IMG/VR virus record: IMGVR_UViG_3300037196_000358
Location: 1 to 20,543 of that record
Source: a virus
Strand: one strand, 5' to 3'
Length of the DNA stretch: 20,543 bases
Shown: positions 3,060-20,426 of the stretch, in pieces
Layout: the number at the start of each line of letters is the position of its first letter
How positions within the stretch are numbered: position 1 is the stretch's first letter
Made by a program: the position numbers and the translations under genes
Notes under the pieces: model-generated
Database searches by the model: none
Seen by the model: the letters and a program-made list of their open reading frames with translations, nothing else
What the model was told of the DNA's origin: nothing

Positions 3060-3345
3060 CCTCATCCTCCGCATCCTCAGACTCAATCGCGAGATTTTCA
3101 ATCTGCACTTCTACACGGGAGTTATCGCCGACACAGGAGACACAGGTAATTCTGCCCAAAAAATGCCCGTGGATAATTCCCCCGACGAATGCATCTCTGT
3201 GGTCCAGATCCAGTTTGCCTAACTCATTTCCGGTGAGAGTGATCCTAAGCCCATAAGGGAACTCTGGCCCATCTACCGGAAGCGGGGCTGAGAAGTCATG
3301 CTTCTCTTCATCATCAAGTTCCATGCTATGCATAATTTGATACAT
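3049..3345 (-). CDS. Acidic small protein resembling phage capsid staple proteins
   Basis: A 98-aa protein. The ATG at 3343-3345 has a G-rich ribosome-binding site (GGGGG, 7 nt away). A TTG two codons earlier overlaps the previous stop and is less likely; a Met at HSMEL is also possible. The protein has an acidic start (MELDDEEKHD), a central FPYGLRITLTGNELGKL segment, then VGGIIHGHFLGRITCVS, and ends in a run of Asp and Glu. From memory this closely matches a conserved family in podovirus and myovirus head regions that is annotated as capsid staple or hypothetical protein. Its place in the structural block agrees with an accessory capsid role. The gene is certain, the family likely, the exact function inferred. 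Confidence 0.75.
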   Translation of the reverse strand: MYQIMHSMELDDEEKHDFSAPLPVDGPEFPYGLRITLTGNELGKLDLDHRDAFVGGIIHGHFLGRITCVSCVGDNSRVEVQIENLAIESEDAEDEDED

Positions 3346-3347
3346 AA

Positions 3348-3941
3348 TCAAACCCCCGGAGCTTGGGGAACTTGCGGAACTGCAGGGGCTGGTGCCGTAG
3401 GCTGCGGAGTTGCTGGCATAGCTCCGGCTGGCGGAACTTGCCCGGCGGAGGGATTGGTCATGAGTTCGGCTTCTTGTCTGTCCGCCATCTCATGCCCTTC
3501 CTTCATGTGCTTATGATGCAAAGCTGCATGAGCTTCTTGGTGCCGGGACTGCATCTGGGACTTTTCATGCTCATGTTTACGATGCATCTTAACTACACCA
3601 TGAGCACCTTCCGAACCGCCAGCATCATGTTCTTTTTCCTGGCGCTCGTGCATAGTTCTATGCTCATCTCTCTGGGCACCGTGCAAGTTACGCCGCTCGC
3701 CTTCCTGCCGCTTATGCATCTCTACCCGTTCGCTTTTGTGCCGAGTTTCCGGGCCAGCTAGTTTTGCAACAGTCTCTTTTTCAGCGGGCTTCTTAGCCGG
3801 GGACTTATCCAAATCCCGCTCATTAGTTCCCGTACCTTTGTCTTTCTTCTCAGAACTACTTTCGGCTTTCTCGTACAACGGACTACGCCGACGAGCCTTG
3901 CCCATATCCTCTTTTCGGGGTTCTTTAGCCTCGTCAGCCAT
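3348..3941 (-). CDS. Highly charged, histidine-rich coiled-coil protein
   Basis: A 197-aa protein starting at ATG 3939-3941, where AAGGA lies 9 nt upstream. An earlier in-frame TTG is too close to that site. The first 70 residues are Lys/Glu/Ser-rich and look disordered. About residues 70-155 are dense in His, Glu, Arg, Lys and Met, with repeated HERQE and HKRQE-type units that should form a long charged helix or coiled coil. The C-terminal 35 residues are a Pro/Ala tail. No cysteine and no enzyme motif are seen. It lies between two small basic proteins and the staple-like protein inside the structural block. It could be a head-filling, scaffold-like or metal-binding protein; none of these is shown by the sequence. 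Confidence 0.75.
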   Translation of the reverse strand: MADEAKEPRKEDMGKARRRSPLYEKAESSSEKKDKGTGTNERDLDKSPAKKPAEKETVAKLAGPETRHKSERVEMHKRQEGERRNLHGAQRDEHRTMHERQEKEHDAGGSEGAHGVVKMHRKHEHEKSQMQSRHQEAHAALHHKHMKEGHEMADRQEAELMTNPSAGQVPPAGAMPATPQPTAPAPAVPQVPQAPGV

Positions 3942-3946
3942 AATCT

Positions 3947-4180
3947 TCAATCCTTTTTATTATACAGAATGGCAGATCGGCGGGGTTTCTTGCTAAATCC
4001 CATCAAAGTTTCCGCCAATCGCGCCTGTTTCCCCAATTTGCCTTGAGAATTTTCACGGCCCTCAGCAAATTCTCGGGTAGTCTCGCCGGCTTCTTTCGCT
4101 TTAGCCGCAAACTGCCCGTGAGCGCCTTCCGTAGCGGCTTGGACCCACTTTTTATTTTTCTTGGGCTTTTCATCGGCCAT
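3947..4180 (-). CDS. Small basic phage protein of the head region (KKWVQ type)
   Basis: A 77-aa protein. The ATG at 4178-4180 has GGAG 7 nt upstream. Upstream in-frame codons would add about 50 unrelated residues that overlap the neighbouring gene, so I reject them. The N-terminus (MADEKPKKNKKWVQAA) and the KLGKQARLAETL segment near the C-terminus match a common type of small Lys/Ala-rich phage protein found near capsid or portal genes. Members usually carry a KKWIQ-like start and a K-A-x-LAxTL end. The protein is strongly basic and probably largely helical. Function is not established for this type; DNA or capsid binding is a guess from charge. Confidence 0.65.
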   Translation of the reverse strand: MADEKPKKNKKWVQAATEGAHGQFAAKAKEAGETTREFAEGRENSQGKLGKQARLAETLMGFSKKPRRSAILYNKKD

Positions 4181-4208
4181 AGGAAAACTCCGCGACAAGA
4201 GGTCAAGA

Positions 4209-4376
4209 CTATTTAGACTTGTCATACAGCACAGATTTCTTGCGCTTAGGTAGTTTGCCACCTTCATCAGACTTGGCAAACTCTTCCCCAACTTTCTGTG
4301 GAACCCCATCGACACCATCCGTCTTAAAGGCTGCCGCATACATCAGCTTTCGCTGCGCTTGGCTAACCGGAGGCAT
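4209..4376 (-). CDS. 55-aa phage protein, MPPVSQAQ type
   Basis: A short gene with ATG at 4374-4376 directly behind the TAA of the upstream gene (TAAATG junction) and TAG at 4209-4211. The 55-aa product starts MPPVSQAQRKLMYAAA, continues with GVPQKVGEEFAKSD and ends in a Lys-rich tail. Small phage proteins with the same plan (MPxxSxAQ start, VPxxVxxEF middle, basic end) are common beside capsid and tail genes, and some are grouped as DUF3008-like. The match is from memory. The direct stop-start junction suggests translation by reinitiation after the upstream gene. Function unknown. Confidence 0.75.
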   Translation of the reverse strand: MPPVSQAQRKLMYAAAFKTDGVDGVPQKVGEEFAKSDEGGKLPKRKKSVLYDKSK

Positions 4377-4868
4377 TTAACTGCGATCCCAGGCGCCAGT
4401 GCTCTGCGAATACGTATAGCAAGCCTTGCCAGCGGCGCCGAGAGCGGTTACAGCATTGTTGATAGTCTGCCCGGTTACGACACTAGCAGTCAGAGCAGTG
4501 ATAATCTGCGACGAAAACACGCAGTTAACCTGGCCGTCTGAGGGGAGCGCCGACAGGGTGACAGTTCCCGTAGCCAGCGTACCTGCCGGATTAAGGATCA
4601 GGTCCATGGTCGAATTGCCGAACGCCTGGGTAAAGCCGGTCGAAGGGGCCAACTTAATATAGCCAGGAACTCCGGCAATCTGGGCAGCCGTGGCGTATTT
4701 GCTGGGAACAGTACCCACACCGCCGACAACATCATTAAACAGATCGGTAGTCCCTACCATAGGAACCACTGCGACATAATTCTGATACTGGGCGTAGGCG
4801 TCCGCGCTGTAGTAGCCCCCGACGCCACAAAGCAGCGCAGCCAGAGCGATTTTAGACATATTGCGCAT
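4377..4868 (-). CDS. Unknown protein with N-terminal signal-like segment
   Basis: A 163-aa protein. The ATG at 4866-4868 is preferred because GAGGGG lies 7 nt upstream; an ATG five codons earlier has no such site. The first 27 residues look like a secretion signal: Arg and Lys near the start, a hydrophobic stretch of Ile/Ala/Leu, and an AYA-Q cleavage-like site. The rest is Thr/Ala/Gly-rich with two cysteines (in NCVFSS and KACYTY) that could form a disulphide bond. A TVTLSALPSDGQ beta-like segment sits between them. It is the second signal-bearing protein of this block. Export to the periplasm or a surface-exposed virion protein are both possible; the family was not recognised. Confidence 0.65.
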   Translation of the reverse strand: MRNMSKIALAALLCGVGGYYSADAYAQYQNYVAVVPMVGTTDLFNDVVGGVGTVPSKYATAAQIAGVPGYIKLAPSTGFTQAFGNSTMDLILNPAGTLATGTVTLSALPSDGQVNCVFSSQIITALTASVVTGQTINNAVTALGAAGKACYTYSQSTGAWDRS

Positions 4869-13708: not shown

Positions 13709-14277
13709 TTCTTATCCCAGTCTTTTGAGATAGGTTGGAAGGGGTCTAGTTCCAAGGAGTCTGCTATACTATCCAGGTCTGTGGAATTATCCACGGGAGT
13801 TATATCAACTAACTCTGGGTCTTCGTAGCTTTTGGTTACTAGATCGGCCCAGGTTAGTTTGACGTCGTGTTCGATTTGCTGCTTGTCCCGCCAGCTAACT
13901 TCACGACGATTTTTCAGCCAGAAAGTAGCTGCTGCTGTGTCTGGGGCGACGTCTTCTCTAGTTTCGGTGACAGTTATGGAACCTTCGCTGTCGGTAACTG
14001 TTTTGGTAGTGGTTTTAACTCCGCCGATTGCCCGATTATAGAGTGCCAGAGCTACTTTACCGTCGGATTCTACGCGGCCTTGGGATAGGTAGGTAGTTAT
14101 CTCCGGCGTGCGCTTCTTCCAGGAATTGAAAATAGCCTCGCTAACTCCGAAGTAAGCTCCGATTTCGGCATCGGCAAGCCCCAACAAGGCCAGTCTGTAC
14201 ACAGTAGCCAGTGCTTCTTGCCGGGAAGTTGCGGGAATAGCTGCGGGGACAAGTGAGACTGCTGTTTTCGGGGGCAT
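13705..14277 (-). CDS. terS: Terminase small subunit
   Basis: A 190-aa protein with ATG at 14275-14277 directly after the TAA of the preceding small gene (TAAATG) and GGAGG 8 nt upstream. At about residues 31-55 LLGLADAEIGAYFGVSEAIF and NSWKKRTPE form a helix-turn-helix of the type that small terminases use to bind the packaging site. Next comes SQGRVESDGKVALALYNRAIGG and, after a variable hairpin, PDTAAATFWLKNRR (about 111-124), a frequent signature of this family. The C-terminal part is acidic. It recognises viral DNA and hands it to TerL. Position next to TerL confirms the call. Confidence 0.92.
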   Translation of the reverse strand: MPPKTAVSLVPAAIPATSRQEALATVYRLALLGLADAEIGAYFGVSEAIFNSWKKRTPEITTYLSQGRVESDGKVALALYNRAIGGVKTTTKTVTDSEGSITVTETREDVAPDTAAATFWLKNRREVSWRDKQQIEHDVKLTWADLVTKSYEDPELVDITPVDNSTDLDSIADSLELDPFQPISKDWDKK

Positions 14278-14442
14278 TTAGGAAGCCTCCGAGCGGGTTT
14301 TGTAGATTAGGTTCTGGAAACCATTGCTGTTTAGCATGTAGCTTACCCAAGATTGCGGCAAATGCAGCAATTCAGCATAAGTTTCATGGGAAGCTTCGGG
14401 AAGTTTGAGAACTAGGTTAAGCAGATCATCTTTAGCGGGCAT
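14278..14442 (-). CDS. 54-aa protein preceding TerS
   Basis: The start is ATG 14440-14442, with AAGGAA 7 nt upstream; a TTG 57 bp earlier lacks such a site. The protein begins MPAKDDLLNLVLKLPEASHE, followed by TYAELLHLPQSWVSYML. It could hold a short helix-turn-helix, but the match is weak. It ends NLIYKTRSEAS, and its TAA directly precedes the TerS start codon. That junction suggests reinitiation coupling with TerS. The function and family are unknown. A packaging accessory role is conceivable only from location. Confidence 0.6.
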   Translation of the reverse strand: MPAKDDLLNLVLKLPEASHETYAELLHLPQSWVSYMLNSNGFQNLIYKTRSEAS

Positions 14443-14503
14443 GGGAAGGTTCCTTAGCTGATTTAGCTGAGTATGCCATGCCAGAGGGTTTAATGTCAAT
14501 TGA

Positions 14504-14827
14504 TTAGGGGAATTCGCGAAGGGTTTGGTCGATTATTGCATCGACCATTTGGTTATCTATTTTCAGTATGGCCAGATAACCGGACTGGGTAGTTTCATCC
14601 CATACTTGTTTGACGCGAAGTCTCCAGGCGGTTTTGATTAGCGGGTACCAGATGTGATCGGGACGGGTTCTGATAGTTTCCAGGAAGTATTTCCAATAGC
14701 GATGTGTATTTTCCAAATGCGGGCGGGAGAGGCAGAAAGCAAATTTAGCGCGGGAGGTAGTTTGCAGTTTTTCTAGGATTATGTGGAATTCAATTGGGTA
14801 GTCATCGGGATCGTGGTGGCGGATCAT
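14504..14827 (-). CDS. Unknown 107-aa protein, first gene of the leftward structural block
   Basis: ATG at 14825-14827 with GGAG 7 nt upstream. The protein starts MIRHHDPDDYPIEFHIILEK and is rich in aromatic and charged residues (RYWKYFLETIRTRPDHIWYP; AWRLRVKQVWDETTQ). It looks like a compact, mostly helical soluble protein with no signal or membrane segment. No family recognised. It is the first gene of the long leftward gene block and lies just downstream of the repeat-rich intergenic region. A regulatory or packaging-linked role is possible, but unsupported by motifs. Confidence 0.6.
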   Translation of the reverse strand: MIRHHDPDDYPIEFHIILEKLQTTSRAKFAFCLSRPHLENTHRYWKYFLETIRTRPDHIWYPLIKTAWRLRVKQVWDETTQSGYLAILKIDNQMVDAIIDQTLREFP

Positions 14828-14958
14828 AGTTGCGCTCCGTTTGGAATTGTCAGATTTAGTTAGCGGCGCTTGGTGAGCTTGCGAACCTTAGCAGAGCTTA
14901 CGGCGCGTTCATATGAATTTTTGCATTTAATTAACTGGCGCATTTGCCATGTGCTTAT

Positions 14959-15031
14959 ATTGAAACTAGTCATGCTAAACCCGAATTGAAACTAAGCATG
15001 CTAAACTCCGGGATAATTAGGCACGCCAAAC
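14959..15031. repeat. Iteron-like direct repeats
   Basis: Two 22-bp copies at 14959-14980 and 14985-15006 match at 20 of 22 positions (ATTGAAACTA, two variable bases, CATGCTAAAC), offset by 26 bp. A third, diverged copy of the right half (CACGCCAAAC) lies at 15022-15031, offset by 25 bp. The segment GATAATTAGG also occurs twice, at 15012 and 15036. The array starts about 130 bp upstream of the first gene of the leftward block. The spacing is close to 2.5 helical turns, as in binding-site arrays for a replication or control protein. Confidence 0.7.
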
Positions 15032-15148
15032 TTTGAGATAATTAGGAGCCTCTAACTAGCACGCGCTGTCCCCCGCAAACCAACGATTTATCGTAGCATG
15101 AAATTCCGCAGTTAGCAAGGCTAATCTTATCCAAGCTAGAATTAAAAC

Positions 15149-15171
15149 CCCGTCGAAGACGGGTATAGCTC
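15149..15171. repeat. Hairpin element copy 1
   Basis: Perfect 6-bp stem CCCGTC/GACGGG with loop GAA (15149-15163) followed by TATAGCTC. It is one of three related elements; the 9-bp tandem repeat starts directly after it. On the minus strand the stem is followed by GTTTTAATT, so this copy could act as a weak leftward terminator. Confidence 0.7.
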
Positions 15172-15207
15172 CATAATTGCCATAATTGCCATAATTGCCA
15201 TAATTCC
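15172..15207. repeat. Tandem 9-bp repeat, four units
   Basis: Three exact units of CATAATTGC and a fourth ending in CC (15172-15180, 15181-15189, 15190-15198, 15199-15207). It directly abuts hairpin copy 1. Confidence 0.9.
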
Positions 15208-15257
15208 GAAACCGGCAGCTGTAATAATATAAATAACTCCACCCAATTTCCGCGGAG

Positions 15258-15280
15258 CCCGGCGGAGCCGGGGATAGTTC
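15258..15280. repeat. Hairpin element copy 2
   Basis: Perfect 6-bp stem CCCGGC/GCCGGG with loop GGA (15258-15272) followed by GATAGTTC. The fifth stem pair is G-C here, against T-A in copy 1 and C-G in copy 3. The tail is itself the first unit of the 10-bp tandem array. Confidence 0.7.
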
Positions 15281-15332
15281 AGGATAGTTCAGGATAGTTC
15301 TAGATAGTTCCAGCTAGTTCTAGATAGTTTGC
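15273..15332. repeat. Tandem 10-bp repeat, six units
   Basis: Units of GATAGTTCAG type at 15273, 15283, 15293, 15303, 15313 and 15323. The first two are identical; later ones differ at one to three positions (GATAGTTCTA, GATAGTTCCA, GCTAGTTCTA, GATAGTTTGC). The 10-bp period is close to one helical turn, so each unit faces the same side of the DNA. Confidence 0.9.
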
Positions 15333-15496
15333 AAATACCGGGAGTAGCTCAGCAGTTACCGGAATTGCCGCAATCACCTAGTATGGTTAAAGAATTAGCC
15401 GCAATTCCCGCCGAACAAGTCCCGCGCGGTTTCGGAAACTGCTAGTTATAATGCACAATCCCCGCGCAATTCCGGCAGTTCCCGCGCAAGCTTTGG

Positions 15497-15519
15497 CCCG
15501 CCGGAGGCGGGTATAACTC
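15497..15519. repeat. Hairpin element copy 3
   Basis: Perfect 6-bp stem CCCGCC/GGCGGG with loop GGA (15497-15511) followed by TATAACTC. After it comes CTAGCTAGTCTAA, a short repetitive stretch distinct from those behind copies 1 and 2. Confidence 0.7.
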
Positions 15520-15748
15520 TGCTAGCTAGTCTAATTCATGCCAGTTGGTCTAATACAGCTTCTAATTAATATGAAACAGTTCCTGAGATAACTAGCGAGG
15601 CTAATTTGAATTACCCAAAATTGGGAAATCGCCAAGTATGGGGGAACGCAACCGACCCCCGCCACCCTACCCCCAAACTCCAAATTAGCCCCCCTACCCC
15701 AGTCTAGCCAATCTCGCTAGTTAAGCTAAGCTAATCAAGCCGCGAGCG

Positions 15749-15762
15749 CCGCGGGCCCGCGG
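15749..15762. repeat. Perfect 14-bp GC palindrome
   Basis: CCGCGGGCCCGCGG reads the same on both strands. It may be a protein-binding site or the tip of a cruciform; no further evidence. Confidence 0.8.
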
Positions 15763-15815
15763 TTAAGCGTCCCTAGTTACGGGCAACTGCGCCCGTCCTT
15801 AGTCGACTACGGTCC

Positions 15816-15855
15816 TAGGGGGCATGGGCCAATTAGACCCGTTCCCATGCCCCTA
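15816..15855. repeat. Long-stem hairpin downstream of the 77-aa minus-strand gene
   Basis: GGGGCATGGG (15819-15828) pairs perfectly with CCCATGCCCC (15844-15853). Past one bulged G, TA pairs with TA, giving a 12-bp stem with a 15-nt loop. It begins 8 bases beyond the stop of the minus-strand gene that ends at 15863. There is no T-run on either strand, so it is not a classic intrinsic terminator. It could stabilise the 3' end of an RNA or be a DNA site. Confidence 0.75.
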
Positions 15856-15862
15856 CGAGGCC

Positions 15863-16096
15863 CTAGATACGCATCCACCCCCCTAGGCTAACTGCCCACA
15901 CCTGCCGCCCCCTAGTAGCCCTGCGGGACCGCTCCAGGAAGCTATACAGGCGGTCCTTAACGCCCTCCACGCGCTTCGCAATTACCGCCGAGGCCCTGCG
16001 ACGATAGGCCAGTATCTGCCCCTCGACGGCATCATGCTTATCCAGCACTAGACGCGCGGTCAGGGCGACGATAGCTTTGGCTTGCTGTAAATTCAT
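15863..16096 (-). CDS. Small basic protein of unknown function (77 aa)
   Basis: ATG at 16094-16096 is preceded by GGGAGGTGA, an almost perfect Shine-Dalgarno sequence, 5 nt away. The GTG three codons earlier lies inside that site and is not used. The protein starts MNLQQAKAIVALTARLVLDK and continues with a strongly basic helical middle (YRRRASAVIAKRVEGVKDRL; RSRRATRGRQVW). Net charge is clearly positive, which suggests nucleic-acid or membrane-surface binding, but no family was recognised. It runs in the same direction as the structural block yet is separated from it by 1 kb. It may be a small regulator. Confidence 0.6.
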   Translation of the reverse strand: MNLQQAKAIVALTARLVLDKHDAVEGQILAYRRRASAVIAKRVEGVKDRLYSFLERSRRATRGRQVWAVSLGGWMRI

Positions 16097-16667: not shown

Positions 16668-18077
16668 ATGCAAAATGCCGAGGCCACGGGGCTTGCTACT
16701 AGGCTGCTGGGGGTAGCTCCAGATAGTGGCGCGGGCGAGGCGGATATTGCCAGCCTCGCTGATCGCATTACGCACAGGTCGCAGACCCGTGGCGCCGTCC
16801 GGGAGTGGCTAATCAGCGCGGGTTTGCCGCTGGAGGCGACAGTAACTACACGCGCCAGGACACTGGCACAGGCCTATTTAGTCCCGAGCTACCGCGCCAC
16901 ACTGATACGCGCGCGGGGGGCAGCCGCTCCGGCCTCGGCATTGCTGGCGGATCTAGCCGCTTTTGCGGCACCAGATGCCCCTCGACCAGCTGTGCAGACT
17001 GTGGAGAGTGTGCAGATTGCCGAGAGTGTGCAGATTGCCGAGACCGCTCCCAACTCCCCTGCCGCGGTTGACATTGCCGTCGTAAGCACGCGCGTGCTTA
17101 CCCTGCTGACGCCAGATATAGCACGCGCTCATGCTGATATGCGGCACGCGCTTGAAGGGCAGCTGGTGGACGGCATGGCTGACGTAGTGGCTCAGACTTG
17201 CAAGGCCGCTACCGCGTATATTGATGCCCGGCTGCCCCCACGTATGATCACGGTCAAGTCCCCGACAGGCGGCGAGATTAGCGTCGGCTTGCAGCATGCG
17301 CAATTCCCTGCTCTTTTGAGGGCATGTGGCGCCCGTGATCACAAAGGCAATAGGCTCAATATATGGCTTACTGGCGCGGCTGGCTCGGGCAAAACCAGCG
17401 CGGCCGAAGCCGTAAGCAAAGCTTTAGGTCTGGATTTTTGTTTTGACGGCGCCCTTGACGCGGATTATAGGGTCTTGGGATTTAGAGATGCCGCTGGCGC
17501 TGTTGCCGAGACCAATTTTCGCCGGGCATTTGTCCACGGCGGCATTTACGTGGCGGATGAAATCGATAGCTGGCATCCGCAAGCCCTGCTGGCGCTAAAT
17601 GCGGCACTAGCTAACGGGGTGGCGAGTTTTCCCGACGGTATTTTCCACCGGCATCCGGATTGCGTAGTTATCGCTTGCGCGAATACTTGGGGGCACGGCG
17701 CTACACATGAGTATGTCGGCCGGGCTAAGCTAGACGCCGCCAGTCTTGATCGATTTTTTCCGAAGATCGAATGGAAAACCGACGAAAAGCTAGAGACGGA
17801 GATTGCCCGGCAAATGGCGGGTGAAATTGGGATTATTTGGGCTAAATTTGTGCAAGGCCACCGCCGACGGGTTAGCGAGCAAGGTCTCCGGGTGGTAGTC
17901 ACACCACGGATGACATTCTCGGGAATTAGTCTGCTGCTGCAAGACTTTACGGCCGGCGAAGTTGTCGAAATGACGGCGCAGGCCGGGCTTAGCCAGGAAC
18001 AGCAGGATGCGCTACGGCTGGCGGAATATGCATCCAGGGTGGCGGTGGAAATCCGCGAAGTCCCGAAAGGCCCATAA
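16668..18077 (+). CDS. CobS/MoxR-like AAA+ ATPase
   Basis: A 469-aa protein; ATG 16668 lies 8 nt after a run of ten Gs that probably serves as ribosome-binding site. About 200 residues of variable, Ala-rich sequence precede the AAA+ core, including a duplicated ESVQIA. Walker A is GAAGSGKT (236-243), Walker B is IYVADEID (293-300), sensor 1 is VIACANT (334-340) and a likely arginine finger is R362 in SLDRFF. The order and spacing match MoxR/CobS-type ATPases, which remodel partner proteins or insert metals, often with a vWA partner. Here the next gene, one base downstream, encodes a vWA-like protein. A role in cobalt chelation is unlikely in a phage; a phage-specific remodelling function is inferred but unknown. 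Confidence 0.85.
   Translation: MQNAEATGLATRLLGVAPDSGAGEADIASLADRITHRSQTRGAVREWLISAGLPLEATVTTRARTLAQAYLVPSYRATLIRARGAAAPASALLADLAAFAAPDAPRPAVQTVESVQIAESVQIAETAPNSPAAVDIAVVSTRVLTLLTPDIARAHADMRHALEGQLVDGMADVVAQTCKAATAYIDARLPPRMITVKSPTGGEISVGLQHAQFPALLRACGARDHKGNRLNIWLTGAAGSGKTSAAEAVSKALGLDFCFDGALDADYRVLGFRDAAGAVAETNFRRAFVHGGIYVADEIDSWHPQALLALNAALANGVASFPDGIFHRHPDCVVIACANTWGHGATHEYVGRAKLDAASLDRFFPKIEWKTDEKLETEIARQMAGEIGIIWAKFVQGHRRRVSEQGLRVVVTPRMTFSGISLLLQDFTAGEVVEMTAQAGLSQEQQDALRLAEYASRVAVEIREVPKGP
17004..17039 (+). repeat. Tandem 18-bp coding repeat in the ATPase gene
   Basis: Two identical units of GAGAGTGTGCAGATTGCC at 17004-17021 and 17022-17039 encode ESVQIA twice. They lie in the variable linker before the AAA+ core and keep the frame. 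Confidence 0.9.
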
Positions 18078-19576: not shown

Positions 19577-19644
19577 GGAGGCTTAACCTAGCCAAGGGCC
19601 TAGAGTCCTTGGCCTAGTTAAACCCCCAAAGAAAGGTTAAAGCT
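19577..19644 (+). repeat. Conserved leader cassette, copy A
   Basis: A 68-bp leader before the 164-aa gene. Its first 27 bp (19577-19603) and last 25 bp before the final two bases (19618-19642) are identical to copy B; a 14-bp insertion (19604-19617) is unique. It folds as TTAA-CTAG-CCAAGG against CCTTGG-CTAG-TTAA with two single bulged Cs, a 14-bp stem. The SD (GAAAGG) follows within AAGAAAGGTTAAAGCT. Confidence 0.85.
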
Positions 19645-20139
19645 ATGTCCAATACACCCATCCCGCTCTACCAATGGCTGGCACTGCAGCTTGAGGGCTG
19701 GAGCAAGGTCCAAAAGCCCACCCCCGAAGGAAAAGTCAGTTGGTCTGATATGTATGAGCGCCGCATTCGCGAAGCTTTGAGCAACGCCTTTCCCTCGGGT
19801 TCTGGCTTTGATGCCGGCACCCAATTGATACCAGCCGAGCATATAAATAAAGCCGGCAAATGGAACGGTAAGTTGACCTTCATTGTAAGCTATCACCACC
19901 TGATGGACGGGTTTTATGCTGGTTGGACCTACCACAAGGTTACCGTCCGGTCAGACTTGACCCAAGGTTTTAGCCTGACCGTCAGCGGCCGGAACCGGAA
20001 CCAGATCAAAAGCTATATTGCCGAAATTTTCACTGAAATCCTGAACCAAGACGTGATGCGTATCACCGACGGGCCGTCTGCTGACTGGCATTTCCACATC
20101 GACGGCCAGTTTTTGGCCAATGCGGACTATGCGGCCTAG
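19645..20139 (+). CDS. Unknown phage protein, 164 aa
   Basis: ATG 19645 has GAAAGG 8 nt upstream, inside the repeated leader. The protein starts MSNTPIPLYQWLALQLEGWS. It has a charged helix with WSDMYERRIREALSNAFPSG and the beta-like parts NGKLTFIVSYHHLMDG and YHKVTVRSDLTQGFSLTVSG. A C-terminal region ends with SADWHFHIDGQFLAN. It looks like a compact alpha/beta soluble protein. No motif pointing to an enzyme was found and I do not recognise the family. Its stop codon (TAG) overlaps the beginning of the next leader copy. The shared leader suggests that it is controlled together with the two genes behind it. Confidence 0.7.
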   Translation: MSNTPIPLYQWLALQLEGWSKVQKPTPEGKVSWSDMYERRIREALSNAFPSGSGFDAGTQLIPAEHINKAGKWNGKLTFIVSYHHLMDGFYAGWTYHKVTVRSDLTQGFSLTVSGRNRNQIKSYIAEIFTEILNQDVMRITDGPSADWHFHIDGQFLANADYAA

Positions 20140-20192
20140 GAGGCTTAACCTAGCCAAGGGCCTAGTTAAACCCCCAAAGAAAGGTTAAAGTC
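20139..20192 (+). repeat. Conserved leader cassette, copy B
   Basis: A 54-bp leader identical to copy A apart from the missing 14-bp insertion and TC instead of CT before the ATG. The outer stem TTAA-CTAG with CTAG-TTAA is the same as in copy A; the tip is shorter (two CC/GG pairs, 3-nt loop). It starts on the last base of the preceding stop codon. Confidence 0.85.
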
Positions 20193-20426
20193 ATGTCCAC
20201 ACTATCTGAAGCTGTTCTTGGTGAGAAGAAGGCCTTTTGGGCCAAAACCTACGGCGAACCGGGCCATGGTCCGGCAGGCCCAAAAGGCATTTTGTTTGCC
20301 AATTGGAACAACTACACCGCGGAACAACGTGCCAGCTTGAAAACCGAAGGTTTCAGTCTTGAATGGTTGGACGAATGGATTATCCGCAAAAGCGGCAAAG
20401 CCTACTACGCCCCGCCGGACAGTTGA
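20193..20426 (+). CDS. Small unknown protein, 77 aa
   Basis: ATG 20193 lies behind GAAAGG of leader copy B. The protein starts MSTLSEAVLGEKKAFWAKTY. It has a Gly/Pro-rich middle (EPGHGPAGPKG), an acidic amphipathic segment with SLKTEGFSLEWLDEWIIRK, and a short end. The tryptophan content is high. There is no signal or membrane segment. The family is not recognised. Like its neighbours it appears to be a stand-alone cassette of leader plus small gene, a layout common in early phage regions. Confidence 0.65.
   Translation: MSTLSEAVLGEKKAFWAKTYGEPGHGPAGPKGILFANWNNYTAEQRASLKTEGFSLEWLDEWIIRKSGKAYYAPPDS

Follow-up and report, generated by a model that had tools for sequence, protein, structure and literature searches.

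The window, by which we mean the whole 20,543-nucleotide stretch analysed, represents part of the genome of a podovirus-like phage. Its leftward genes include those for small and large terminase, head-tail connector and capsid, the gene for a CobS-like ATPase and others run rightward, and the non-coding control region R1 (14828-15862, no strand assigned) lies between these blocks and contains hairpins, tandem arrays, a promoter, boxes and a palindrome. The sister contig G001 (IMGVR_UViG_3300048778_000101; 62,208 bp) is 99.7% identical across the window and carries R2, the paralogue of R1, in a ~1-kb non-coding gap (G001 31085-32094), which is also covered by a third contig of the same species, L079 (IMGVR_UViG_3300037196_000069). 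R1 and R2 have in common a block that is 71% alike, a repeated box, a palindrome and a promoter, and the flanks of the hairpins are otherwise non-alignable. They are paralogous control regions, each bordering the leftward late genes on their upstream side.

An open reading frame across the first two hairpins has 107 codons in G001 and is cut to 66 in the window (15042-15242). Its length differs where an array differs by 12 bp, and the stretch is therefore unlikely to be coding. R1 shows 7 substitutions against G001 in ~1.03 kb, as compared to 53 in the whole 20.5 kb, and thus drifts faster, with one hairpin among the sites hit; these sister comparisons cover three contigs of one species, and the polymorphism counts are tiny. 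Outside R1, we detected an 18-bp repeat (16991-17096) within the CobS-like gene, and paired 2-bp indels between window and sister in that gene, which shift and then restore the frame across ~10 bp. Two repeated segments were found next to small rightward genes at 19577-19651 and 20139-20199 (27 bp, 100%; 41 bp, 95%).

The candidate sigma70 promoter of the leftward late block (15090-15118, minus strand; TTGCTA-17-TACGAT) was detected by alignment to R2, with 8/12 matches, while the R2 sigma70-like promoter, TTGCCA-17-TACGAT, was found by scan and points into the late genes. Three copies of the box GAAACTAGNCATGCTAAAC (14962-15033, no strand assigned) lie between the promoter and the late genes; counting strong copies, there are three in R1 and four in R2, with one more, inverted, on the far side of each region (15760-15780 in the window; G001 positions of the box: 31205-31345, 31957 and 58430). 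The third block, in the opposite orientation at G001 ~58,355-58,450, combines the box with TTGCTA-16-TATAAT. The directional box, which follows sigma70-like promoters in three regions, is a possible operator or leader element; the exact scan with it gave >100 single matches in unrelated contigs and was uninformative. The relative L088 (67% portal identity) has operator-like repeats of the AAAGGTGCAC/GGTATGC type at 3100-4600, upstream of its large terminase gene, where the hairpins are absent.

On the other side of R1, the palindrome CCGCGGGCCCGCGG, perfect over 14 bp (15749-15762), and one inverted box occupy 15749-15780 (no strand assigned), and the arrangement in R2 is alike, with the palindrome at G001 ~31946. 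R1 and R2 also lie at the sharpest local G+T strand-bias switches of the sister genome (window 14001-16000; G001 30000-32800 and 50800-53600). The G+T content of the plus strand has its maximum just left of R1/R2 and its minimum just right of them, also between flanking genes of the same orientation, which points to a DNA-level process centred on these regions.

Three hairpins were detected in R1, all on the plus strand: copy 1 at 15149-15171 (CCCGTC-GAA-GACGGG, tail TATAGCTC), copy 2 at 15258-15280 (CCCGGC-GGA-GCCGGG, tail GATAGTTC) and copy 3 at 15497-15519 (CCCGCC-GGA-GGCGGG, tail TATAACTC). The shared plan of stem, loop and tail, which an earlier sequence-only reading of the window had described at these positions, is matched exactly by the pattern CCCGNCGRAGNCGGGKATARYTC at 15149, 15258 and 15497, and with up to 3 mismatches the same three sites were found in the window and none in 100 dinucleotide shuffles. 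That reading had proposed shuffled sequence as a test, and the hairpins proved to be far above chance: of 2,000 shuffled versions of 14828-15862, 0.45% had three or more triloop hairpins with a 6-bp stem, whatever their sequence, and none had that many with C-GNA-G loops. G001 carries the same three R1 hairpins, with the copy 3 arm GGTGGG forming a G-T wobble, and three further hairpins in R2, at 31517 (GGA), 31765 (GGA) and 31876 (GTA, one T-C mismatch), as well as a decayed inverted copy at ~31657-31678. The six strong copies share the plus strand and are confined to R1 and R2 of the 62-kb genome; the covariance-model search of the sister genome gave no further convincing copy.

The loops of all six strong copies are G-N-A closed by C-G, with A, G, G, G, G and T at the loop centre, and the variable sites are mostly this centre and one stem pair. 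The sequence-only reading had called the hairpins covarying. The fifth stem pair is indeed T-A, G-C and C-G in copies 1-3, and across the family this pair shows three pair types and one mismatch, i.e. it changes compensatorily, but five of the six stem pairs are invariant and the covariation score was equalled in 33 of 500 column shuffles. Stem covariation, carried by one pair, is suggestive only, and quasi-palindrome correction could be the source of the compensatory pair without selection.

The covariance search proposed in that reading, when applied to 455 kb of related phages, gave no copies, and relatives at ~46-68% protein identity have no detected family members. In IMG/VR, pattern scans in exact and in relaxed form found multiple copies solely in this species (L079 included), the scan of GTDB genomes gave ten single matches, six of them without a paired stem, and no genome with several, and no Rfam family reached the gathering threshold in the window. 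The sequence-only reading knew of no described family of this kind, and in the openly accessible literature we likewise found no phage family of such hairpins described. The hairpins are a real family, local to one phage species.

Tandem arrays are located beside three of the six strong copies, in each case directly on the 3' side, and their units include the tail core ATARYT. Array 1 (15171-15205, plus strand) consists of 3.9 units of CCATAATTG (9 bp, 100% match) and adjoins the tail of copy 1; array 2 (15272-15329, plus strand) consists of 5.7 units of GATAGTTCAA (~10 bp, GATAGTTCAG-type, 87%) and lacks 10+2 bp of this length in the sister. The repeats reported earlier after copies 1 and 2 are hence present, but the third proposed one is not: no array was called in the CTAGCTAG-type stretch that follows copy 3 and is altered to TGCCAGCTAG in the sister. 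The R2a array has a 16-bp unit, GGAGCCGGGTATAGCY, made of loop, 3' arm and tail, as would result from copying that stopped within the hairpin. With array starts placed at random within R1 and R2, the chance of three so near to hairpins is ~0.001.

The arrays also change in length between the sister phages. Over the 20.5 kb aligned between the window and G001, the sole indel >2 bp is one 10-bp unit (9+1 in the alignment) immediately behind hairpin 2, and over the 6.4 kb aligned between L079 and G001 the sole indel is one 16-bp unit immediately behind hairpin R2a; these two, both of them array units directly 3' of hairpins, are the only indels that reach 10 bp in the ~27 kb of these few sister alignments. 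Existing tandem repeats are slippage-prone even without a hairpin. Taken together with the R2 copies and the tail-derived arrays at three of six copies, the length changes support the earlier suggestion of structured sites that seed tandem repeats, with hairpin-provoked slippage as the probable cause.

The same reading had offered, as the other option, a mobile or self-copying element, and a GC-rich hairpin copying itself into intergenic DNA would account for near-identical copies of 20-23 bp with sharp similarity boundaries amid non-alignable flanks, and for the decayed inverted copy in R2. We consider this unlikely, since the copies are confined to two paralogous regions, no insertion/empty-site pair or target duplication was seen, a Y1 transposase was not detected in the sister genome by a search with working controls, and neither the relatives nor the viral and GTDB scans gave copies. 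The three sister contigs share all the sites that they cover.

We favour, at somewhat better than even confidence, a family of DNA hairpins specific to this phage, d(CCCGNC-GNA-GNCGGG) with an ATARYT-type tail, which fold, provoke slippage arrays on their 3' side and are kept as a cis site. The plus strand, when single-stranded or strongly supercoiled, would form a C-GNA-G triloop hairpin of very high stability. A polymerase on the plus template would reach the tail first and then stall at or inside the hairpin, slip back and re-copy the tail, sometimes together with the 3' arm, and repeated slippage would extend the arrays solely 3' of the hairpin. Template hairpins make polymerases stall and slip in vitro (PMC4134008). 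The hairpins themselves would be retained as a cis site of the control region, for replication or supercoiling-sensitive regulation, and not as a by-product; a DNA-level cis site is their most likely role. Three of the six strong copies have no array, and the hairpin alone is therefore insufficient for array formation, while the G-T wobble of copy 3 in the sister shows that the constraint is not absolute.

Folding as DNA on the plus strand is probable from published work on triloops. The energy parameters give equal stability for both strands, and R2c, the copy with the T-C mismatch, folds poorly in the calculation. For d(GCA), the triloop closed by CG has a melting point 20 C higher than the one closed by GC (PMC5815330), and the N4 promoter hairpin, with a sheared G:A loop pair, is extruded in vivo under gyrase supercoiling (PMC4496689), so that folding of the plus strand would be preferred. 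A more specific version, in which GNA-triloop hairpins extrude as recognised cis sites of two bidirectional control/replication regions and build iteron-like arrays by slippage, outside the N4 promoter system, is for the present doubtful.

Since late transcription runs leftward, the hairpins could instead act in the RNA, as terminators, processing or stability elements of leftward transcripts, and two copies are terminator-like on the minus strand (R1a with GTTTTAATTC, R2b with TATTGTTATA), with weak T-runs. Four of the six strong copies have no T-run, the candidate late promoters of R1 and R2 both have the hairpins on their upstream side, R2 has a longer terminator-like hairpin with TTATTTT near the tail-gene stop, and the Rfam result for the window also argues against this reading, which we regard as quite unlikely; intrinsic termination was rejected, as the T-run test gave weak runs at 2/6 strong copies. 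It is likewise quite unlikely that the elements are a functionless mutational by-product, with quasi-palindrome correction perfecting the hairpins and slippage yielding the arrays. Template switching could give the one compensatory pair without selection, and the drift of R1 above the 20-kb average, one hairpin included, agrees with this, but near-identical hairpins in regions elsewhere ~71% alike or unalignable would be left unexplained, as would the shared strand and the GNA loops.

The triloop class recalls N4-type early promoters, in which template-strand hairpins are read by the virion RNA polymerase: all six strong copies have the C-GNA-G loop and three contain the heptamer GCGGAGC. The N4 heptamer GCGRAGC, which we deduced from the contacts -8G, -10G and -11R and the G:A pair -10/-12 (PMC4496689), is kept in these three only, the others being TCGAAGA, CCGGAGG and TCGTAGC. 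Contrary to N4, variation falls on the -8 pair and spares the outer stem, and the hairpin polarity points into the late genes. The giant virion protein matches the T7-like internal virion protein D (gp16-like), no T7- or N4-type RNA polymerase was recognised by sequence searches (one of them, which had no working positive control, is uncounted), and an RNA polymerase motif scan gave nothing convincing. The N4-type promoter is largely refuted, and we give it hardly any credence.

As a structure, the family is similar to the N4 virion-RNA-polymerase early promoters in its short GC stem, its purine-rich 3-nt C-G-closed loop with G...A ends and variable centre, and its phage intergenic location; it differs in having six strong copies in late control regions with tandem arrays attached, a constant outer stem with the variable pair adjoining the closing pair, and no recognised phage RNA polymerase. 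The GC clusters of yeast mitochondria (PMC4478555) and the repetitive hairpin-forming elements of sponge mtDNA (PMC2800124) are also short, GC-rich and palindromic and occur as several near-identical intergenic copies, whereas here we saw neither mobility nor insertion polymorphism nor target duplication, the copies are in two paralogous regions only and the arrays are one-sided. REP/RAYT elements are likewise short extragenic hairpins with a conserved foot, but the foot found here is 3' on the plus strand (GARYTAT 5' of the hairpin on the minus strand) and not GTAG, and the pattern scan of bacterial genomes found no multi-copy element. REP/RAYT was rejected, as alignment and flanks gave no GTAG-type tetranucleotide 5' of the hairpin; the search of the sister for a Y1 transposase was also negative. 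A mechanistic parallel is the hairpin slippage model of Viguera and Ehrlich (PMC4134008), in which the polymerase halts at the foot of a template hairpin before misalignment on short repeats; those cases were mainly engineered and scored as deletions, while the present one is natural, multi-copy and apparently array-creating.

The change in array length between sister phages suggests genuine hairpin folding at the DNA level. The phage provides a natural, compact test case of short hairpins that apparently create adjoining tandem repeats, with strand polarity and loop type legible from the sequence. The marked strand-composition switch centred on R1 and R2 allows a direct test of a role in replication or recombination, and if the hairpins are also functional, DNA-hairpin recognition would be extended beyond the N4 promoters.
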